Source of the DNA: Dehalococcoidia bacterium
GTDB taxonomy: Bacteria > Chloroflexota > Dehalococcoidia > GIF9 > AB-539-J10
Direction: 5' to 3'
Assembly: GCA_016930935.1 (NCBI GenBank)
Contig: JAFGFT010000026.1
Location: forward strand, 1-64,000
DNA: 64,000 nt
Below the pieces are notes generated by a model, which saw only the letters and a program-made list of their open reading frames with translations, did not search any database and had not been told where the DNA came from. Below, piece after piece: positions 17,192 through 39,986 of this stretch; within the stretch, counting starts at the first letter, position 1; each line of letters opens with the position of its first letter. The position numbers and the translations under genes are program-made.

Positions 17192-18013
17192 ATGTACCGA
17201 GACCGACTGCTAAGAGCCCTCATGGAACAGGGACTTGTCGTCTTCTCCATCGCTGAGGCGCGGCATGTCGCCGAACAGGAAGCAATACCCGCTAGCTCCG
17301 TTGCACCCCTGTTGGCAAACCTCACACGCAGTGAATGGGTATCTCGCCTGAGACGAGGTCTCTACGTAATGAGCGGACCTGTCCCCGGCACTACACCCGT
17401 GCACTCATTCACCATCGCGACACATCTCGTGGTCCCGTCAGCAATCAGTCACTGGTCAGCGTTGCACTACCACGGCCTTACAGAACAGATACCGAGAGTC
17501 GTCACCGCCTTCACGCCCAAGAGCGTCGTTACGCCCGGAATGCGCCGCCCTGCAGCAGCAGAACGACGAAGGAAGCACGCCTGGACCATCCAGGGAGTCA
17601 GATACGAGTACGTGACCGTCAAGCCAGAACACTACTTCGGCGTTGAACCAGTCTGGGTGGACGAGCACTCACAAGTTGGTATCACGGATAAGGAACGTAC
17701 GATTCTTGAGACCTTCATCTCACCCCGCACGTTCGGCGGCCTCGGACAGGCAATGGGGATACTCCAGGAGCATCTTGGCTCACTCCAGATCAGCAAGCTC
17801 ATTGACTACGCCCTCAAGTGCGGCACAGTGGCTGCCGCCAAGCGCCTTGGATGGACGCTCGAACACGCTGGTATAGATGAGCGCTACCTCACCCCACTTC
17901 TCGAGTTGTCATCCAGCGGGTATCACCTGCTTGACCCAGTACATCCTCGCAAGGGACCGCGCGAAAGGCGCTGGATGATTCAGAACAATATGCACGCACA
18001 CAACACAAGATGA
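17192..18013 (+). CDS. abiEi: AbiEi-family antitoxin / transcriptional regulator (type IV toxin-antitoxin)
   Basis: N-terminal wHTH, RLRRGLYVMSG, HWSALHYHGLTEQ; 4-bp overlap with the AbiEii-like gene. Confidence 0.85.
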   Translation: MYRDRLLRALMEQGLVVFSIAEARHVAEQEAIPASSVAPLLANLTRSEWVSRLRRGLYVMSGPVPGTTPVHSFTIATHLVVPSAISHWSALHYHGLTEQIPRVVTAFTPKSVVTPGMRRPAAAERRRKHAWTIQGVRYEYVTVKPEHYFGVEPVWVDEHSQVGITDKERTILETFISPRTFGGLGQAMGILQEHLGSLQISKLIDYALKCGTVAAAKRLGWTLEHAGIDERYLTPLLELSSSGYHLLDPVHPRKGPRERRWMIQNNMHAHNTR

Positions 18014-18882
18014 AGCAACTCTCGATTCGATTGCGCGAAGTCGCCCTGCTTCAACGAGTCCCTCAGGAAGTCATCGAGAAGGACTACGCCATCAGCTATG
18101 TCCTCGCTGGCATTTCCGCTCAGCAAGAACTCAGGGACGCCCTGGTGCTCAAGGGCGGAACAGCCCTCAAGAAGCTGTTCTTCGGGGAGTATCGATTCTC
18201 GGAAGACCTCGATTTCTCCTCCACAAGTGCTCCGACCGGCGAGAAGCTCGAAGATGCACTTAACGAGGCGGTGAGAGAAGCAGGGCGCATGATTTCCGTA
18301 CAGGGCCCTTTCGCTCTCCAGGTCGAACGCTACTTGGAGCGGAACCCGCATCCGCTCGGCCAGGACGCCTTCACCATCAGGGTCCGGTTTCCATGGCAAC
18401 GCCAGGCACTCTGTCGACTCAAGATAGAAATCTCCCACACAGAACCTGTCCTCATGAAGCCGGAATTGCGGACTTTGCTTCACGGTTACGAAGAAAAGCT
18501 AGACTGCCAAGTACAATCGTATCCGCTTGAGGAGATAGTCGCGGAGAAGCTTCGCGCACTCTTGCAGACGCATCAGAAGCTTGTGACACGCGGATGGAAC
18601 CAACCCCGCGCCCGCGACTACTACGACCTGTGGCGAATACTTGAAGACTACGGAGAGAGGCTGCAAAAACCCGTGATTATCGATCTTCTGAACAGGAAGG
18701 CCGCTCACCGCGCAGTCTCGTGGGAGAGTCTGGACGACTTCTTCACACAGGAACTGGTCGCCGAGGCAATACGAACATGGGACAGCAATCTCGGCACATT
18801 CGTTGCTGACCTGCCCGAATGCAGCATTGTCTTGAGACAACTCCGCGTTTCCCTTTCAGCGCTGCTGTTGAAGTCGCCCTGA
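18010..18882 (+). CDS. abiEii: AbiEii/AbiGii-family nucleotidyltransferase toxin
   Basis: VLKGGTALKKLFFGEYRFSEDLDFSS; EEIVAEKLRALLQ; RARDYYDLWRIL. Confidence 0.92.
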   Translation: MKQLSIRLREVALLQRVPQEVIEKDYAISYVLAGISAQQELRDALVLKGGTALKKLFFGEYRFSEDLDFSSTSAPTGEKLEDALNEAVREAGRMISVQGPFALQVERYLERNPHPLGQDAFTIRVRFPWQRQALCRLKIEISHTEPVLMKPELRTLLHGYEEKLDCQVQSYPLEEIVAEKLRALLQTHQKLVTRGWNQPRARDYYDLWRILEDYGERLQKPVIIDLLNRKAAHRAVSWESLDDFFTQELVAEAIRTWDSNLGTFVADLPECSIVLRQLRVSLSALLLKSP

Positions 18883-21490: not shown

Positions 21491-22279
21491 TTATCTCTTC
21501 ACAGCGCTGATGAGTGCTGAGCGGACGAACTCCTCATATCCCTGCCCTTCCTGCCATCCGCTGATGACTTCCGCACTCTCGGGCTTGACCGCCACATCAA
21601 TGTCGGAGAATCCGGCGCTTCGCAGCATCCTCTCGATATCCGGCACCAGGGCTGCGCCCCCGATGCAGGAGCAATACGCACCTGTGTCCCCTTCAACACG
21701 CTCAGGCAGAGGCTTCAACGCAACCACGTCCGAGATGGCAAGCCGACCACCGGTGCGCAGGACACGGAATGCCTCGTTGAACACGGACTGCTTGTCCGGC
21801 GAGAGGTTAATGACGCAGTTGGAAAGGATGATGTCGACCGTCCCATCAGCCACGGGCAGATGCTCAATCTCACCCAGGCGGAAGTCCACGTTAGTGTGGC
21901 TTCCTTCACGCGCGTTGCGTCTCGCCTTGCTGACCATGTCCGGCGTCATATCCACGCCGATAACACTACCTTCCGCGCCAACCTGCCTGGCGGCAAGAAA
22001 GCAGTCCAACCCTCCCCCGCTCCCCAGGTCCAGCACGGTCTCCCCCTGCTTCAGACCTGCAATCGCATGAGGATTGCCGCAGCCGAGGCCCATGTCTGCT
22101 CCATCCGGCACAGACAGGACATCGTCCGGTGAGTATCCCAGCTTAGCCGCGTACTCCGCAGCATTCCGCTCGTTCGGGCCACACTCACCACCGCAGCAAC
22201 AGGAGCCTTCACTGCGCGCTATACCGCCGTACCGGTTGCGGACTTCTTCTCTCAGCGTATCGTTGTCCGGTTGATTCAT
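21491..22279 (-). CDS. arsM: Arsenite methyltransferase (ArsM-like)
   Basis: CCCGGECG, LGCGNPHAIAGLKQGETVLDLGSGGGLDCFLAARQVG, ISDVVA. Confidence 0.9.
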   Translation of the reverse strand: MNQPDNDTLREEVRNRYGGIARSEGSCCCGGECGPNERNAAEYAAKLGYSPDDVLSVPDGADMGLGCGNPHAIAGLKQGETVLDLGSGGGLDCFLAARQVGAEGSVIGVDMTPDMVSKARRNAREGSHTNVDFRLGEIEHLPVADGTVDIILSNCVINLSPDKQSVFNEAFRVLRTGGRLAISDVVALKPLPERVEGDTGAYCSCIGGAALVPDIERMLRSAGFSDIDVAVKPESAEVISGWQEGQGYEEFVRSALISAVKR

Positions 22280-22310
22280 GACCTCACCATCCCCTGGAGG
22301 TTCTCTCCAT

Positions 22311-22697
22311 TCATTCATCGATCGGCTTGACTGTGCCGTGCCGTTGTTCTGGCTGGCTCCGGCAGGGTGACCCGGGAGTGCAGGAAAGAACCTGCAGAAC
22401 TTCAGTCCGGTCGGCCGCCACCTGCGGGGACTGAGAGAGAGACTCGGTCAGCCACGCCCTCAGCAAAGGTGGAAACGTGTCAGACAGCCTGTAGTAGACC
22501 CACTGCCCTTCCTTCCGGCTCTGCACCAGGCCTGCGCCGTGCAGGATACTCATGTGGCGGGACACGGTGGCGGTTGCGAGGTGAAGCAGGGCGGTTATCT
22601 GACAGACGCACAACTCCTCTTGCTCCATGAGTACCGCAAGCACGCGTATGCGGGTGGAGTCCGCGAGTGACTTGGTGATGGAGAGCGTCTGTTGCAT
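22311..22697 (-). CDS. arsR: ArsR-family metalloregulator
   Basis: LADSTRIRVLAVLMEQEELCVCQITALLHLATATVSRHMSILHGAGLVQSRKEGQWVYYRL. Confidence 0.92.
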   Translation of the reverse strand: MQQTLSITKSLADSTRIRVLAVLMEQEELCVCQITALLHLATATVSRHMSILHGAGLVQSRKEGQWVYYRLSDTFPPLLRAWLTESLSQSPQVAADRTEVLQVLSCTPGSPCRSQPEQRHGTVKPIDE

Positions 22698-22738: not shown

Positions 22739-23000
22739 AAATGGTAGCCCGAGTGTCCGGGGATGTCAAAGAATTGTCGCTCTCCTCTCTTGGGCAAAAT
22801 TTCCTGACATTCTCTGGCAGGACGTTGTGCGGTGGCTATATACAAGGAAGTGGCATAAGCAACAGGCAGGGAACTCAGGAAGGACCGACGGCTCACGGTG
22901 AACCCCTTGTCCATATTGACGCGGCCATCCATAATGTCACCGTCACCGGAACCCGACCAGTTCCATTGCAGGTGCACAACGTCGATTGGGAGGTCCGAAG

Positions 23001-23333
23001 GTGAAGAATCCACCCTGGTCGCGAGAAGAACTCATTCTGGCCCTTGACCTGTACTTTCGCCTTAGCCCATCCAAGGCAAGCCCACATCACCCTGAGGTCG
23101 TGGCGACCACCGAGGCACTACATCGTCTGCATGTGCACGCGCAGGAAGTACGAACGCCCAACTTCAGAAGTCCCGCAAGCGTGGGAATGAAGCTCTGCAA
23201 CTTCCGTAGGCTGGACCCAGATTATCATGGCGTCGGATTGAAAGCCGGTAGCAAGGGAGAGATATCCGTGTGGAATGAGTTCTCCGCGGACAGGGAACGG
23301 TTGGCTCGGGTCGCCAAAGACCTGATGTCCTAG
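23001..23333 (+). CDS. Stand-alone N-terminal domain as found in some HNH (McrA-like) restriction endonucleases
   Basis: VKNPPWSREELILALDLYFRLSP...FRSPASVGMKLCNFRRLDPDYHGVGLKAGSKGEISVWNEFSADRERLARVA; no HNH motif follows; RBS gggagg before GTG. Confidence 0.6.
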   Translation: MKNPPWSREELILALDLYFRLSPSKASPHHPEVVATTEALHRLHVHAQEVRTPNFRSPASVGMKLCNFRRLDPDYHGVGLKAGSKGEISVWNEFSADRERLARVAKDLMS

Positions 23334-23460
23334 CGTGGAGGAGCAACTTGACGACAGCTACCCCAAACGCATTGATACCATGCACAGGTTCAATTCAACA
23401 ACGCCACGCCACCTCTGTCCCAAGACCAGTCGGCCGATGTGTTGGTCAGACCCCACCTCG

Positions 23461-23904
23461 TCATACCACCTTACCGCGGCTCGATGCATGCACGCCGTAT
23501 CCTTCACGGACAGCATGAACAACGCGCTCGATAGAACCATCAAAGTCATTCTTGAGATCGTGCTGCCACAGGCCAACCACGGTCCAACCCATATCTACAA
23601 GTCTTGAGCGGTTGGCCCAGTCTCGCTCCATGGTCGCCTGAATCTTGCGATGCCAGAACTCGGAGATTTTTCCTCCCCAAGACTCAAACCCGTACCCGTG
23701 CCAGAAGTCCCCATCAACAAACACCACAACCCGCGCACGCGAGAACACAATATCCGGCTTTCCGGGAAGCATGGACACATGCTTTCGAAAGCGCAGACCA
23801 CGACGATGAAGGGCTGAACGAACACGTAGTTCCGGAATCGTGTCCTTGCCCTTGACGTGGGACATGCAGTAGCGGCGCTGTTCGGTCGTTAAGTTGTCTG
23901 GCAT
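23461..23904 (-). CDS. vsr: Very-short-patch-repair (Vsr)-type endonuclease
   Basis: QRRYCMSHVKGKDTIPELRVRSALHRRGLRFRKHVSMLPGKPDIVFSRARVVVFVDGDFWHGY...FWHRKI...RDWANRSRLVDMGWTVVGLWQHDL. Confidence 0.95.
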   Translation of the reverse strand: MPDNLTTEQRRYCMSHVKGKDTIPELRVRSALHRRGLRFRKHVSMLPGKPDIVFSRARVVVFVDGDFWHGYGFESWGGKISEFWHRKIQATMERDWANRSRLVDMGWTVVGLWQHDLKNDFDGSIERVVHAVREGYGVHASSRGKVV

Positions 23905-23938
23905 CTTTCGCGCTGCTGGTCAATTCCGTCAAGCACGG

Positions 23939-26900
23939 TCATTGTTCTCGGACAGCGTCCATCCCGCAGAACCCTCTGAAGTCGCACTCCACGCACCGCG
24001 ACCCGTTCGAACGAGTTCGCGGAGGACCGCTCGGTCCACACTTGAAGTCGCGGTTCCAGATCCTGTGTGCAGTCTCAGCAACAATGTTCTCTGCATTTTG
24101 CAGAGAAGAGGCATTCAGTGGCACTGACATCTCGCCACTCGCCGCGTTGCCAGCATCCAAGTACCGTACCAATCCTGCTTCCGGCTGATATTCAAGCTCG
24201 CGTTTGGCTCCGATCGCATAAAGCGCAACCTGCAGTTGCATCTCATTCTCGTCCAGCTTCATGTGAAGGTCAGAGTCAGGCTCACCCGACTTGAAGTCAA
24301 TCAGTGCTACACGGGGCGGATCGTCCAGTCGTACCACATCGATTGCTCCTGACACAAGTACTCCACCGATGGCCTCCCCACAGTCAACCAGGGTCTCAAA
24401 CTCCTTCTCCGGTTCAAACTCCAGCGTGCTCAATTCGTCCGCGTGTCTCATCACGTAATCGGCTACAATACGGACGCCCTTCTCCCGCATGAGAGTGGCA
24501 GGTTCACCCGTTGTATACCGCAAATAGAAGAGCCCTTGCGAAACTAGTCTCCTGACTTCGCCCTCAAGTAGACTCCGATCAGAGGCCAGTGCAGCCCACT
24601 TGCGTGGGTCTGTGTGTATCGCGCGCAGAAGATTGTGTACGCCGCGGCCGTAGCCAAACGCCTGGTCGATTGTAGGTGAGAACCCCAGGACCTTCCTCAA
24701 GTAGAAGTCGTGAGGGCACTCAAGGAAGTATCTCAAGTCCGAGAACGAAGTACAAAGACGGGTGTCTCTAAGGTGTTCCTTGGGTGCATACCGCAGTTCC
24801 GCAAGGAGTTGGTCTGAGTCGTCTGTTACTAGTCCGCCAGCTCCATCGATGATGTTGCGGAGTTCTCCCACAAATCTGGAGGTCGAGTGCCCCGAGTGTG
24901 TCACGAACAGAAACCGCTCCGACCTCGTCAGAGCCACGTACATCAGCCTTCGCTCGCCATCGTAGTTATCGTTGTCAGCGAGGCCTGTCACATCCAATCG
25001 CCGAGATGCTGCACTAGCAAAGGGCACGTCTGGCGTTCTTCTCGAATAGGCGCTAGGGAATCGACGAGGATTCACATCGGCCAGGAACACGGCGGCGAAC
25101 TCTAGTCCCTTGGCCGCATGGATTGTCATGATGCTTACGGCGTCTGGTTGGACCATCAACGGCTGTTCCTCGGTGCGGCCGGACCCGGCACCGTACAGAC
25201 ACAGGCCGACTACCTGCCAATGATACTCCGCTGCGCTTGTCCAACCGGGAGTCTCAATTCCAGTCACGAGCTTGCTGAGGGCTCCCAAATGAAACAATGC
25301 TGACTGCCCTCTTCCCTCGCAAGTGTCCCACAAGCCTACGCCTGCCTCGCCAAGAAGCATGTGATATATGTGCTGAGGGAAGACTCTACGCAATTCGCGC
25401 CGAGAAGTGGCAAATTCCCGAAGGCTTCGCGTCGTGATAGCGCACGCGTCATCCTCGGACAACGTCTGTCCCGAGGAAATACGGCTACCAATTGCACGCG
25501 CGGCGAAGAGCAGTCTGGCCTCAACCTCTGGGTCAAACGACAATCCTGTGGCCCGAACACTTCGCGCGGCTGCGTGGAGCACCGCTTCAGGCTCAGGAGA
25601 ACAGCCAAGTACCGTCCGTATTCGATTTGGCAAGCTTCGCGAATCGTGGGAGGCTCCCATAAAAACACTGCAGTTGGCCGTTATAGCGAGAGCCGCAAGA
25701 AGTAGCAGTACTTCTGGCTGTGAGAACAGGTCGGGGCCAGCCCGAACCACACAGGGAATCCCTGCCGCTTCCAGAGCTTCCATATATGCACGCACATCGG
25801 TGGAAGACCTGACGAGAACGGCCACGTCGGACAGCGTTAGCCCTCGATGTGTTCCATCTCTCTTGTCGTGCCTGACACCTTCAACCTCAGAAGGTACAAG
25901 CGCGGCAATCGCCTTCCCTATCCAACCCGCTTCATCTTCGCGAGACATGAAGTCGACTAGCGCGACATGCGACCTATGGTGATCCGTACGCGTGGAATTT
26001 CCATGAATCATTGGTTCGGTCACCATAGATCGAACTGGACCAATCGTGTCGGCCCACTCATTTGCAACCGTAACGACTCGCCGCGTCGACCGGAAGTTCT
26101 CCTGCAGATCGACAACGTCTGCGTCGTCTGCTTCCTTGAACTCCTCCCACAAGTCGCCGATAATTTCTACTCTGGCCCCGCGAAAACCGTAGATCGACTG
26201 CCGGTGGTCCCCCACTGCGGTCAGCCGGCCTGAGTCCCCTACCAACAACTCCACTATCTTGCGCTGGACGGGATTTATGTCCTGGACTTCATCGACCACA
26301 ATGCGCACCCCACCATCGGCCCCCAATAGATCGAGACGGACTTGGTCAGCACGCAGCCTGCGAACGAATTCGCTCTGCGACGTACTGAAATCCAGAAATC
26401 GGCGGCACTTCAGATACGCGTAGTATCTTGCAGCTGATCGGGCGAAACACTCCGCAACTTCAGAATCTCCCACGTCAGTCAACAGTCGCGCCTGCCTACA
26501 CCAAGCATGTTCAACTTCACCAAGTTGGTACGGAGCCTCACCATTGGGCAAATCAATCTCGAACTCGCCGCGCTCGTGCAGCTGATCATAGCCCTGCGTG
26601 AAAAACTGCATTGTCCTGTACTGTCCTAGACTTGTCGCGTCCCTAAGTGCACCAAGTGCCAGAACGCCATGAAAACCACGAAGCAGGAGAGCCACACGAG
26701 AACCCTCGTCCAGAATATCAAAGTTGTGGTAGTCGTCGGGCCAGTACTCACGCAATCGAGCAAGACAAAAACCGTGTATTGTGCCGACGTACATCCCACC
26801 AAGAGAAGATTCGACACCGTCAGTCGAAATCCTAGCGAGCCAGCCCCTAATGCGGAACTTCATCTCCTCGGCTGCCCTCTCAGTAAAAGTGAAGGCAACG

Positions 26901-27076
26901 ATCCGATCTTTCTCAACTCCCTCGACAGCGATCCACCATGCAATTCGTCGAGCCATGACCTCCGTTTTTCCTGAACCCGCGCCAGCGACTACAAGAAGCC
27001 GCCTCGCTGGCGAAGAGGCTGCATCCGCCTGTCGTGCAGTGAGTTGGCCCAAGATCAAGTCTTCAACAGACGCCAT
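23939..27076 (-). CDS. UvrD/AddA-like SF1 helicase fused to C-terminal RecB/Cas4-type PD-(D/E)XK nuclease with predicted Fe-S cysteines
   Basis: VVAGAGSGKTEVMARRIAWW; VDEVQDINPVQ; GDHRQSIYGFRGA; MTIHAAKGLEFAAVF; VALTRSERFLFVTH; C-term GRGVHNLLRAIH, GAIDVV, ALIDFKSG, QLQVALYA, CVECDFRGFC. Confidence 0.93.
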   Translation of the reverse strand: MASVEDLILGQLTARQADAASSPARRLLVVAGAGSGKTEVMARRIAWWIAVEGVEKDRIVAFTFTERAAEEMKFRIRGWLARISTDGVESSLGGMYVGTIHGFCLARLREYWPDDYHNFDILDEGSRVALLLRGFHGVLALGALRDATSLGQYRTMQFFTQGYDQLHERGEFEIDLPNGEAPYQLGEVEHAWCRQARLLTDVGDSEVAECFARSAARYYAYLKCRRFLDFSTSQSEFVRRLRADQVRLDLLGADGGVRIVVDEVQDINPVQRKIVELLVGDSGRLTAVGDHRQSIYGFRGARVEIIGDLWEEFKEADDADVVDLQENFRSTRRVVTVANEWADTIGPVRSMVTEPMIHGNSTRTDHHRSHVALVDFMSREDEAGWIGKAIAALVPSEVEGVRHDKRDGTHRGLTLSDVAVLVRSSTDVRAYMEALEAAGIPCVVRAGPDLFSQPEVLLLLAALAITANCSVFMGASHDSRSLPNRIRTVLGCSPEPEAVLHAAARSVRATGLSFDPEVEARLLFAARAIGSRISSGQTLSEDDACAITTRSLREFATSRRELRRVFPQHIYHMLLGEAGVGLWDTCEGRGQSALFHLGALSKLVTGIETPGWTSAAEYHWQVVGLCLYGAGSGRTEEQPLMVQPDAVSIMTIHAAKGLEFAAVFLADVNPRRFPSAYSRRTPDVPFASAASRRLDVTGLADNDNYDGERRLMYVALTRSERFLFVTHSGHSTSRFVGELRNIIDGAGGLVTDDSDQLLAELRYAPKEHLRDTRLCTSFSDLRYFLECPHDFYLRKVLGFSPTIDQAFGYGRGVHNLLRAIHTDPRKWAALASDRSLLEGEVRRLVSQGLFYLRYTTGEPATLMREKGVRIVADYVMRHADELSTLEFEPEKEFETLVDCGEAIGGVLVSGAIDVVRLDDPPRVALIDFKSGEPDSDLHMKLDENEMQLQVALYAIGAKRELEYQPEAGLVRYLDAGNAASGEMSVPLNASSLQNAENIVAETAHRIWNRDFKCGPSGPPRTRSNGSRCVECDFRGFCGMDAVREQ

Positions 27077-28127
27077 TCACATCACCTCTCACAAGCGCGT
27101 TGGGCTGCAGGCCAGCAATTACCGATTCCGCATGCCTTTGGATAAATGGCGGAGGGAGAGCATTGCCAATCATCAGTGCGACCGAAGCCTTGTTGGCAAT
27201 AGTCGGGAACCTGTAGTCACACGGAAAGCCCTGCAATAGGGCGGCCTCACGCATTGTGATGGCCCTGTCCTCTTCGGGATGAAGGAATCGTCCTTTCGAT
27301 GGATTGAAGCACCCTCCAGTAATCGTCGGCGCAACCGAATCCCATTTCATACGCCCGTACACGTCTTTGAAACCGTTGCATCGTTTGTGGCACTCCAATT
27401 GGTCCGCGAACGGCAAGTCCGTTCGACTCCCACCATCTTTGGGGATGCGCCGTATCAGATCAAGCACTCTCTGCGAACGATGCTCCACGATATCATGTGC
27501 AGTGTCACCACTAGTTCCAGATGTTGGCAGGTCACCTATGGCCTCTCTCACCGTCACTTGCTTGTCCAGCGGTGCCGCAAGAGGCACCTCAAACCCCTGT
27601 CCCGCAAGATACAAGAGGCGCTTTCGGCGCTGTGGCACTCCATAACGGGACACGTCCAACACGTATGGCTCTCCAACGTATCCAATATCCTCAAGGTGCG
27701 CTCGAAAGTCCTCAAATCGCTGGTCTTTGAGCAACCCAGGCACGTTCTCGAGCATTACCACACGCGGCCGTAGAGCCTCAACAAAGCACTGAAATTCCAG
27801 AAGGAGGTCATTCCGAGGATCTTCAACGGACAATCTGCCATTGCGCGTCCTCATGGTCGAGAAACCTTGGCAAGGGGGACAACCAGCCAGCAAGTCCAGT
27901 CGTTGTTCGCCAAGGCCCAATGCTTCTGCCACCTTGAAGGGATCAAGCTGCCGGATATCTTCCCGCCATGTCTTCACTTTGGGATGATTCGCCTTGTACG
28001 TTTGCATAGACAGAGGATCGATGTCGACAGCCCCAAGCACATGGAAGCCTGCCTGCTTCAGACCCACCGTGAGTCCTCCACATCCGCAGAACAAGTCAAT
28101 CGCTGTCGGAGCTTGATTACTTTCCAT
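27063..28127 (-). CDS. dcm: DNA (cytosine-5-)-methyltransferase
   Basis: AIDLFCGCGGLTVGLKQAGF (I), GCPPCQGFS (IV), LENVPGLL (VI), QRRKRLLYLA (VIII), GNALPPP (X); overlaps helicase start by 14 bp. Confidence 0.95.
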   Translation of the reverse strand: MESNQAPTAIDLFCGCGGLTVGLKQAGFHVLGAVDIDPLSMQTYKANHPKVKTWREDIRQLDPFKVAEALGLGEQRLDLLAGCPPCQGFSTMRTRNGRLSVEDPRNDLLLEFQCFVEALRPRVVMLENVPGLLKDQRFEDFRAHLEDIGYVGEPYVLDVSRYGVPQRRKRLLYLAGQGFEVPLAAPLDKQVTVREAIGDLPTSGTSGDTAHDIVEHRSQRVLDLIRRIPKDGGSRTDLPFADQLECHKRCNGFKDVYGRMKWDSVAPTITGGCFNPSKGRFLHPEEDRAITMREAALLQGFPCDYRFPTIANKASVALMIGNALPPPFIQRHAESVIAGLQPNALVRGDVNGVC

Positions 28128-29808: not shown

Positions 29809-29826
29809 CATAACATATGTGTTATG
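29809..29826. promoter_or_regulatory. Palindromic candidate HigA operator
   Basis: CATAACA-TATG-TGTTATG, perfect 7-bp arms immediately upstream of the higB-like coding start. Confidence 0.6.
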
Positions 29827-29834
29827 CTCCCCTT

Positions 29835-30182
29835 GTGTCCTGGAACATTCTCTACTACGAAGATGAGACAGAACACGAATCAGTTGTTGAAGAAATAGAG
29901 AATTTCTCCGAGAAAGCCCGGGCGAAGATACTTCGCTTCATTGACCTGATGGAAGAGAAGGGGCCAACCAAGCTGAGAGGCGAATACACAGCTCATATTC
30001 AGGACGATACCTGGGAGTTACGCATTGACTCTGGCTCCGACAGGTTTCGAGTACTCTATTTCGCAGTGAAAGGACGTACTGTGATAATGCTGAGAGCTTT
30101 TCTCAAGAAGACAAAGAAGACTCCACCACGAGAAATCACCACTGCGAAACGAAGACATGACGACTGGCTAGCACGAACTTGA
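29835..30182 (+). CDS. higB: RelE/HigB-like (Gp49 family) toxin
   Basis: VSWNILYYEDETEHESVVEEIENFSEKARAKILRFIDLMEEKG...LRGEYTAHIQDDTWELRI...FRVLYF...VIMLRAFLKKTKKTPPREI. Confidence 0.88.
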   Translation: MSWNILYYEDETEHESVVEEIENFSEKARAKILRFIDLMEEKGPTKLRGEYTAHIQDDTWELRIDSGSDRFRVLYFAVKGRTVIMLRAFLKKTKKTPPREITTAKRRHDDWLART

Positions 30183-30223
30183 TGCGCCACGAACGTTGGG
30201 CACACTAACAGGTATGAAAGACA

Positions 30224-30556
30224 ATGAAAACACATGAAGAAGTGAAACGCCGACTACTCGCAGATCCGGAAGTGCGCGCTGAGTACGACAGTCTGGAAAC
30301 AGAGTTCACCCTACGGAGCGCGATTGTTCAACTCCGCAACGCATCAGGCCTATCGCAACGTGTTGTCGCCGAGCAATTGGGGACACACCAGTCCGCACTG
30401 TCGAGAATCGAGTCTGGCCGGGCCAACGTCAGCATCACTAACCTCGCACGAATGGCGGACGCGCTCAATTCTGATTTTGCAGTCTGCTTCGTTCCGCGCT
30501 CCGGCCCACACGAGGGTAAGCGAATCGAAGCCCGTGTACGTGTTCCGTCGAAATAG
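30224..30556 (+). CDS. higA: XRE/HigA-like antitoxin
   Basis: HTH LRNASGLSQRVVAEQLGTHQSALSRIESGRANVSITNLARMADALNSDF; follows toxin by 41 bp. Confidence 0.9.
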   Translation: MKTHEEVKRRLLADPEVRAEYDSLETEFTLRSAIVQLRNASGLSQRVVAEQLGTHQSALSRIESGRANVSITNLARMADALNSDFAVCFVPRSGPHEGKRIEARVRVPSK

Positions 30557-38066: not shown

Positions 38067-39475
38067 ACCAATATGATAGGTTTGAAGAAATACGGGAAGA
38101 ACCGCGTGAAGCAGACGTAGAGGACACCGCAGAAAAGTCCGAAGGACCGGAAGGTACTCCCGTTGATGAGGCTGCTCTCGATGCAGAGGACGTCGATGTG
38201 ACTGCCCCTGAGCAGCCACAGGACGACGAAGAGACAACACCTCCCGACCGTCCGGAAGACCTCTCATCTGCTGAAGACGAGGCAACCGCTGCAACCGAAG
38301 AACCGGCTGGTCGCCCTGAACCAGCAGGCGTGGTAGACGCATCACCTGAGCCAGATATCGCGGATTCCGCGTCCCCTGACGTTGAGACGGCTCCGCAGGA
38401 AGAACTGAATCTGGCCGAGGCGCCATTGGACACGTCTGATATGGACGCGGCCGAAGCGACGCCCCTCATCACTGATTCTTCCCGTCCGGAAACACAGGCC
38501 GATACTGAGCCTCTGACCGACGCGATGCCCGCCATTCCTGCAGAAGACACCGAGGAAGTGGAGCACTTCACGACTGAGATTTCCCGGACGGAAACACAGG
38601 CCGATACTGAGCCTCTGACCGACGCGCTGCCCGCCATTCCTGCAGAAGGCACCGAGGAAGTGGAGCCCTTCACGACTGAGATTTCCCGGCAGGAGGCCCA
38701 GGCAGATAATGAATACGCTGCCGACACTCCGGTGGAAGACTCTGTGCAGGGAGCAGGGCAGGAAGTCGCCCAGGGCGGCGACGAGCAAGGTCCCAACCAC
38801 GATGTTGTGGCACAGTCTCAGCCATCTCAAGAGGGACAGGAACAGGCGTCTGGGAGAGAGGAAGGCGAAGCCGCCCACCCACGAGTGGTCATCAGTGCGG
38901 GAACCGATGAGCAATCCCTGGAGGCTCTCAGGCTCTGCAGGGAGAAGGTGAATCAACTCCACCTCAAGATGCATCCCCTTGCCGCACGCTACGACAATGA
39001 CAAGCACGTCATCATCTTCTTCAGAGCAGATGACAAGGTTGACTTCCGAAAACTTGTCCGCGAACTCAGCCGTATACTGCGGGCACGCATCGAGATGCGC
39101 CAGTTGGGCCCACGAGAACAGGGCAAGCTCTGTGGACTGATAGGAAAGTGCGGATATTCCCTCTGTTGTCAGACATTCCTGGGACAGTTCGCTCAGTCAT
39201 CCATCAAGATGGCCAAAGCCCAGGACCTCGCGCTCAATCCTCTGAAGATATCCGGTGTGTGCGGACGCTTGATGTGTTGCCTCAATTTCGAGCAGGAACA
39301 CTACGCAGAGGTCAGGTCACGGATGCCCAAGGTGAACAGGCAGGTAGAGACAGAATTCGGGCCGGGCAGGGTCGCCTCCCTGAACGTGCTGCGTGAAACA
39401 GTCACGGTTCAGTTCGAAACGACGTTCAAAGAGATTCCTCTGGAACAAGTCCGGCTATCTGAAACCCAGGGATGA
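38063..39475 (+). CDS. PSP1/RicT (YaaT)-like protein with long acidic repeat-containing N-terminus
   Basis: C-term EMRQLGPREQGKLCGLIGKCGYSLCCQTFLGQFAQSSIKMAKAQDLALNPLKISGVCGRLMCCLNFE; N-terminal ~270 aa low complexity; 4-bp overlap with holB. Confidence 0.9.
   Translation: MNQYDRFEEIREEPREADVEDTAEKSEGPEGTPVDEAALDAEDVDVTAPEQPQDDEETTPPDRPEDLSSAEDEATAATEEPAGRPEPAGVVDASPEPDIADSASPDVETAPQEELNLAEAPLDTSDMDAAEATPLITDSSRPETQADTEPLTDAMPAIPAEDTEEVEHFTTEISRTETQADTEPLTDALPAIPAEGTEEVEPFTTEISRQEAQADNEYAADTPVEDSVQGAGQEVAQGGDEQGPNHDVVAQSQPSQEGQEQASGREEGEAAHPRVVISAGTDEQSLEALRLCREKVNQLHLKMHPLAARYDNDKHVIIFFRADDKVDFRKLVRELSRILRARIEMRQLGPREQGKLCGLIGKCGYSLCCQTFLGQFAQSSIKMAKAQDLALNPLKISGVCGRLMCCLNFEQEHYAEVRSRMPKVNRQVETEFGPGRVASLNVLRETVTVQFETTFKEIPLEQVRLSETQG
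38489..38692 (+). repeat. 102-bp near-perfect tandem repeat (2 copies) inside the RicT-like gene
   Basis: ETQADTEPLTDAMPAIPAEDTEEVEHFTTEISRT / ETQADTEPLTDALPAIPAEGTEEVEPFTTEISRQ; DNA copies start 38489 and 38591. Confidence 0.9.
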
Positions 39476-39986
39476 TGCGCAACTGCTGGGGCAGATACTT
39501 CTGCCACTCCTCGTGCGCGTAGAAGTAGTGGTCGGGAACGTGGTAGCCGTAGCCGCGGGGAGTCCTGATGGCGCTCAACAGCTTCATACCAGCTTCCTCA
39601 GGGGTGCGCCCACCCTTCTTCCTATTGCAGTTCTTGCACGCACTGACCACATTCAGCCAGTGATGCCCACCACCCTGACTCCGGGGCACCACATGATCGA
39701 GGGTCAGGTCTTTGGTGTGTCTACCACAATACTGACAGGTGAAACCGTCACGAGCGAACACCTCCAGCCTTGTGAGTCGCCGTTCGTGGCACGGACGCCT
39801 CACACCCAGCGTCAAACGAATGACTGATGGTATGGCGTACGACGCGGACACGGTGTGTATCTCCCCCCTGCTATCCTCCACAAGTTCTGCCTTGCCACCC
39901 AGCACGAGTATGATGGCGCGGCGGGTGCGACACACATCGTGGGGCTCATAGCCCTGGTTCAAGACTAGCACCGGCGCGTTTACCAT
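39426..39986 (-). CDS. HNH endonuclease
   Basis: VFARDGFTCQYCGRHTKDLTLDHVVPRSQGGGHHWLNVVSACKNCNRKKGGRTPEEAGM. Confidence 0.92.
   Translation of the reverse strand: MVNAPVLVLNQGYEPHDVCRTRRAIILVLGGKAELVEDSRGEIHTVSASYAIPSVIRLTLGVRRPCHERRLTRLEVFARDGFTCQYCGRHTKDLTLDHVVPRSQGGGHHWLNVVSACKNCNRKKGGRTPEEAGMKLLSAIRTPRGYGYHVPDHYFYAHEEWQKYLPQQLRIIPGFQIAGLVPEESL

Follow-up and report, generated by a model that had tools for sequence, protein, structure and literature searches.

UvrD-Cas4 fusions encoded beside Dcm, with Vsr in 'several' of the loci, were reported from computation by Hudaiberdiev et al. in 2017, and a defence role was predicted for them (PMC5704561). We found no experimental test of such loci in the open-licence literature. 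The DNA studied here, called the window, is a stretch of 64,000 nucleotides from a Dehalococcoidia bacterium (GenBank assembly GCA_016930935.1, contig JAFGFT010000026.1, positions 1 to 64,000). It lies on contig C37 (86 kb) in a 2.4-Mb assembly of 83 contigs. The window shows the same architecture, in that a UvrD helicase fused to a PF12705 nuclease (HEL) is encoded beside a 5-methylcytosine (5mC) methyltransferase (MT) and a Vsr-family endonuclease; the likeness is judged by description, not by direct sequence match. An earlier sequence-only reading had taken this arrangement as new, but the association was already in print. The trio is a clean, intact example of the gene group predicted to be defensive in 2017. 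On balance, and by a modest margin over doubt, we read it from sequence as a restriction-modification (RM)-like defence cassette, in which HEL would be the DNA-destroying effector, MT would place the self mark and Vsr would repair the resulting mutations. The trio probably protects bacteria from foreign DNA. To the published prediction we add a linkage to BREX, a link of the MT to HgiDII-type systems and the separation of HEL from AddAB.

Two further groups of known systems resemble the trio in part. The top PADLOC matches of HEL are GajB models, and GajB of Gabija is, like HEL, a UvrD-type helicase. However, no GajA (ATPase-TOPRIM) is present in the trio or among its direct neighbours, and HEL bears its own nuclease domain. 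DISARM, Druantia and ARMADA share the logic of methylase, helicase and nuclease, and Vsr domains occur in ARMADA (PMC12458937). Their helicases belong to superfamily 2 (SF2; YprA/Snf2 type), whereas HEL belongs to superfamily 1 (SF1), and none of their other components lies by the trio. BREX PglZ, BrxC and PglX/BrxX were not recognised among the neighbours of the window's trio.

The three genes form one compact minus-strand operon, a unit of 4.7 kb (Table 1). The sequence-only reading had placed four open reading frames here, the trio and a small convergent frame, and all four lie at the positions it claimed. Its 14-bp overlap between the end of MT and the start of HEL and its 34-bp gap between the HEL stop and the Vsr start were exact on recheck. 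The gene families that it named for the trio (MT, UvrD-helicase/PD-(D/E)XK nuclease and Vsr) were confirmed by Pfam and NCBIfam matches. A longer MT frame is possible from GTG 28256; the ATG at 28127 is preferred because of the promoter-like site listed in Table 1. The promoter call is weak, since four such sites were found in the region and 2.3 were expected.

HEL matches PF00580 (1.2e-45), PF13361 (1.3e-34) and PF12705 (9.5e-21), all above the gathering cut-off. Residues 1 to about 735 form an SF1A helicase of the UvrD/PcrA type, and residues 777–1037 form a Cas4/RecB-type PD-(D/E)XK nuclease. The active sites are intact. Sixteen motif residues were examined in 33 aligned members (clade 1 of the family plus distant members), and the sole change is a serine in one of them in place of T38, the neighbour of the Walker lysine. 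The Walker A lysine, the DExQ box and the motif VI arginine are invariant in this alignment, as are H814, D913, D927, K929, Q949 and Y953 of the nuclease. Four cysteines (C787, C1028, C1031 and C1037) are also invariant and are placed for an iron-sulfur (Fe-S) cluster. The AddB and Cas4 families have an Fe-S cysteine pattern, and the HEL cysteines match it. By this analogy, we infer an Fe-S cluster in the nuclease domain. The AlphaFold2 model of HEL has a predicted local distance difference test (pLDDT) score of 88 and a predicted template modelling (pTM) score of 0.88. Its closest solved structure is AddA (4cej_A, E 2.7e-30), with UvrD, RecB and AdnB near behind.

HEL shares with AddAB, AdnAB and RecB an SF1A helicase with a C-terminal RecB-type nuclease. 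It differs from them in being a single-gene, mobile and patchily distributed enzyme of a separate family, found in an operon with MT and Vsr. In ten HEL-carrying genomes, HEL scored 1517–1722 bits against the family profile, whereas the next UvrD-type protein reached at most 155 bits. In a phylogenetic tree, the 31 clade-1 HEL rows form one fully supported group apart from the AdnAB rows and from the own-genome UvrD and AddA rows. The outgroup rows sit on very long branches, and only the separation of families was used, not the deep order. Besides HEL, the window's genome encodes two ordinary UvrD-type proteins and, on contig C19, a pair of AddB-like (1027 aa) and AddA-like (1084 aa) proteins. 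A housekeeping AddAB/AdnAB role was rejected for HEL because it is a single gene of a discrete family, by score gap and tree, in a host with its own AddAB-like pair. The sequence-only reading had proposed checking whether HEL falls in the AddAB/AdnAB clade as the only such enzyme of the genome; it is not in that clade and is not the only such enzyme.

The MT matches PF00145 (E 1.2e-58) and, over the cut-off, TIGR00675. An alignment of 23 sequences shows the conserved motifs PC (C86), ENV and QRRxR, and the target-recognition region is of the 'IPxDGGSR...CHK..GFKDVYGRM.W' type. With family, catalytic motifs and recognition region all present, the protein is a predicted sequence-specific C5 methyltransferase. 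Mean identity within the MT family is 0.71 for the second half of the recognition region and 0.55 for the N-terminal catalytic part; this higher conservation suggests that the family has one shared DNA target.

The MT is homologous over its length to the MTs of HgiDII/BbrUII-type restriction systems, which are Type II RM systems. In a Pantoea prophage-like region, an MT with the same recognition region precedes an HgiDII/BbrUII-like restriction enzyme of full length, with no HEL; this enzyme scores 304 bits, under the 550-bit equivalog cut-off. In another genome (G149, locus L085, 5411-9745), the same MT subfamily and a Vsr, 62–65% identical to those of the window, accompany an HgiDII/BbrUII-like restriction enzyme and what remains of a helicase (256 aa), which looks like partner exchange. 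MT and Vsr can thus be paired with either a GHKL-type nuclease or HEL, and HEL seems to occupy the slot normally held by the restriction enzyme. The window's locus differs from the Type II systems in that no cognate restriction endonuclease adjoins its MT, and no HgiDII-like nuclease is found at the locus or elsewhere in its genome (no match to NF050001 at 1e-40). The absence of an adjacent restriction endonuclease, already noted by the sequence-only reading, held in family scans of the trio's neighbours. M.HgiDII methylates GTCGAC (PMC5867850). HgiDII-like partners suggest this sequence as the target of the window's MT, but we do not predict it, because the MTs beside true HgiDII/BbrUII equivalogs carry a clearly different recognition region.

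The trio recurs widely outside this genome, an outcome that the sequence-only reading had left to a neighbourhood search. When 85,462 species genomes were scanned with an alignment of two sequences, 46 loci were returned, of which 28 are full or partial HEL-family members. These, the window, one relative from its phylum (L061) and two loci from IMG/VR make up the set of 32 loci, in which HEL scores 1444–1745 bits apart from one fragment of 640 bits. In 24 of the 32 loci, HEL has an MT of one subfamily (520–605 bits; other C5 methylases score at most 202 bits) no more than 0.85 kb away, so the MT-HEL arrangement is far beyond chance. Vsr adjoins HEL in 26 of the 32, a count that includes copies seen by tblastn alone. 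A second helicase clade, about 30–34% identical, is paired with the same MT subfamily at L062, L097 and L098. Distances within HEL and MT covary (Mantel r 0.40, p 0.016). Co-divergence of Vsr and MT was also tried as a way to rank the partners and gave no discrimination, the three Mantel values being alike (0.29–0.46). The genes stay linked even where they are rearranged: MT is divergent and Vsr comes first in L018, L027, L039 and L090, L030 and L038 carry Vsr on the opposite strand, and the order is HEL-Vsr-MT in L061.

The labels of the 32 loci span 12 phyla; many of the loci come from short contigs of metagenome-assembled genomes (MAGs), and some labels are doubtful. Among 400 Chloroflexota genomes, seven have any HEL match at 1e-30, a patchy distribution. 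Four MTs in these genomes stand above a score gap (E < 1e-150; next 4e-101), and each of the four has a HEL-type helicase gene as its neighbour, which is truncated in one case. The unit moves horizontally, as its broad distribution and a tree that mixes phyla show. The doubtful labels include those of L018 (Uliginosibacterium) and L027 (Chthonomonas), two almost identical trio loci in MAGs of different phyla, with a phage-lysozyme gene alongside; misbinning or a mobile element is probable.

Several loci place the trio among defence genes. It stands directly after BREX pglX-pglZ-brxL in L022 and L026, and directly after brxL in L016, where pglZ is two unassigned genes further up; the BREX genes of L016 and L026 were identified by their clustering with those scanned in L022. 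This placement suggests layered defence, with the trio as a second layer. In L021, the genes immediately before the trio encode Type III Res and Mod and an HgiDII-like nuclease. GmrSD is near the trio in L017 and HerA in L038. These contexts bear on the idea that the trio is a DNA-repair cassette with no defence role, in which HEL would process Vsr nicks to fix deaminated 5mC, in the way that mismatch repair employs UvrD and exonucleases. All three activities are of known repair types and the gene linkage is compatible with it, but the repeated placement after BREX and beside GmrSD, Type III RM and further defence genes speaks for defence, several loci keep MT and HEL without Vsr, and the distribution across phyla is patchy. 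We regard a pure repair function as improbable.

In actinobacteria (Planobispora, Actinomadura, Spirillospora and Nonomuraea; L032, L034, L036, L040 and L045), HEL ends an MZA-like operon with Z1 (MzaC-like) and DUF4420 genes. Also in these operons are a DUF6339 gene and two unassigned genes, of about 630–685 and 298 aa, and several of the loci have other C5 methylases and Vsr nearby. Such contexts underlie the main rival to the RM-like reading. HEL would then be a methylation-blind, RecBCD-like degrader of broken or nicked DNA that aids BREX, Type III RM and Z1 systems, and MT and Vsr would be a separate methylation-repair pair travelling along. The co-occurrence of HEL clade 2 and of the actinobacterial branch with Type III RM or Z1 systems agrees with it, as does the match of the HEL fold to AddA, RecB and AdnB, and an ancillary role has already been proposed (PMC5704561). 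Against it, one MT subfamily is tightly paired with HEL, even in the second, distant clade, and many trio loci, the window included, have no other recognised restriction gene directly beside them. We consider the helper role unlikely, though less so than the repair cassette.

An ATPase gene of the AAA_15/AAA_21 type was seen beside MT in L039 (935-2704), L090 (2330-4099) and L097 (2646-4862), 68–89% identical between loci. It recalls the Gabija and OLD ATPases, and no TOPRIM domain was detected in it.

The window's Vsr matches PF03852 (4e-26) and TIGR00632 (118 bits, cut-off 98), and its model resembles the structure of E. coli Vsr (1cw0, E 4e-8), which gives it a Vsr fold. D51, H69, the aromatic residues F67 and W68, and E25 are invariant in 22 relatives; D51 and H69 are presumably the catalytic residues, an assignment taken over from the known E. 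coli enzyme. The equivalents of the E. coli zinc ligands are lost in the window's copy (C66 is replaced by D, and the equivalents of C73 and C117 are absent). These positions vary, with cysteines present in many other trio members, and E. coli-type zinc ligands are not required of every family member. The Vsr copies of the trio loci are divergent subtypes, with a minimum identity of 25%. No Vsr was found in L020, L091, L062 and L098, which are intact MT-HEL loci with flanks on both sides. We mark Vsr as accessory because it is missing from these loci and free in orientation; it is most simply a repair enzyme of the kind that accompanies 5mC methylases.

A more active part for Vsr can be imagined, in which it would nick or cut unmethylated MT sites and HEL would load at the nick and degrade the strand. 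Vsr domains act as nucleases in ARMADA systems (PMC12458937), and the catalytic residues are invariant in the 22 sequences though some of these, the window's copy among them, have lost zinc-ligand positions. The loci that lack Vsr, the divergence of its subtypes and its reversed strand in L030 and L038, as expected of an accessory, argue against an initiating nuclease, to which we give as little credence as to a pure repair function.

For the RM-like cassette, restriction, its gating by methylation and the division of labour are what we infer. MT would methylate cytosine at one sequence of the host genome and so mark the DNA as self. DNA that lacks the mark would be unwound and cut by HEL, a single chain that joins an ATP-driven helicase to a nuclease domain of the Fe-S type. 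The likeliest gate is MT itself, which, bound at an unmethylated site, would recruit or license HEL, since HEL has no recognisable sequence-recognition domain. In Type I, Type III and ISP restriction, the methylase subunit recruits or licenses a helicase-nuclease; for the trio, the same principle is proposed. Vsr would remove the T:G mismatches that arise from deamination of the MT mark. A more specific version of this reading is tentative, and we hold it to be plausible rather than probable. A processive helicase-nuclease of the RecB/Cas4 type that does not itself recognise sequence would serve as the restriction subunit under the gate of a monomeric C5 MT. Such a system would have arisen when this enzyme took the place of the GHKL-ATPase nuclease in HgiDII-like systems, and would act both by itself and, behind BREX, as a second layer.

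Some observations weigh against the RM-like reading. HEL has no visible way to distinguish methylated from unmethylated DNA. Its relatives with Type III Mod/Res or Z1 operons fit an ancillary DNA-processing role equally well. No match to HEL was found in plasmid records, and phage records gave only partial matches (22–31% identity), none covering 80% of HEL. If the RM-like reading is true, the trio represents a widespread kind of restriction system in which an SF1 RecB-like motor is the effector and 5mC the self signal. It raises the question of how a sequence-blind helicase-nuclease learns which DNA is foreign. With a compact three-gene unit, the 2017 prediction is now directly testable.

Table 1. 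Features of the window, with positions counted from its first nucleotide.
Feature	Position	Strand	Description and evidence
C5-cytosine methyltransferase (MT)	27063..28127	-	354 aa; PF00145, TIGR00675, 23-sequence alignment
Helicase-nuclease (HEL)	23939..27076	-	1045 aa; UvrD helicase and PD-(D/E)XK nuclease; Pfam, motif alignment, model
Vsr-family endonuclease	23461..23904	-	147 aa; TIGR00632, PF03852, alignments, model
Stand-alone HNH-family N-terminal domain	22986..23333	+	115 aa from TTG start; partial match to PDLC04132
Candidate operon promoter TTGACA-17-TAGATT	28211-28183	-	10/12 consensus match, 55 bp before the MT ATG; weak
AbiE-type toxin-antitoxin pair	17192-18882		AbiEii 5e-38; AbiEi_4 just under cut-off
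Gp49/RelE-like toxin and helix-turn-helix (HTH) antitoxin pair	29817-30556
ArsR-family regulator, then methyltransferase	21491-22697
Stand-alone HNH endonuclease (HNH_5)	39426-39986

The small convergent frame is present 127 bp from Vsr, as the sequence-only reading had seen; its size of 110 aa counts from position 23001 and becomes 115 aa from the TTG start at 22986. It aligns to positions 27–121 of 286 of the PADLOC HNH model PDLC04132 (E 1e-12) and has no HNH domain. Its relatives in Chloroflexota are open frames of 258–300 aa, and the 127 bp that separate it from Vsr contain no HNH-like frame. It is probably a truncated remnant of an HNH protein, outside the unit. A relative was found beside only one of the 31 other loci (L044), where it is full-length with its HNH domain; a partnership with the trio is not supported. 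The HNH-type protein was likewise rejected as the restriction enzyme, being an N-terminal domain alone and not recurrent.

The defence-island neighbours named by the sequence-only reading were borne out in part. The AbiE-type pair, with its AbiEi partner below the cut-off, and the Gp49/RelE-HTH pair are both within about 7 kb of the trio; for the HicAB module, a simple motif scan gave no HicA-like frame. Two other features were seen in the window. The methyltransferase that follows the ArsR-family regulator resembles ArsM (arsenite methylation), and the stand-alone HNH endonuclease is probably unrelated to the trio.

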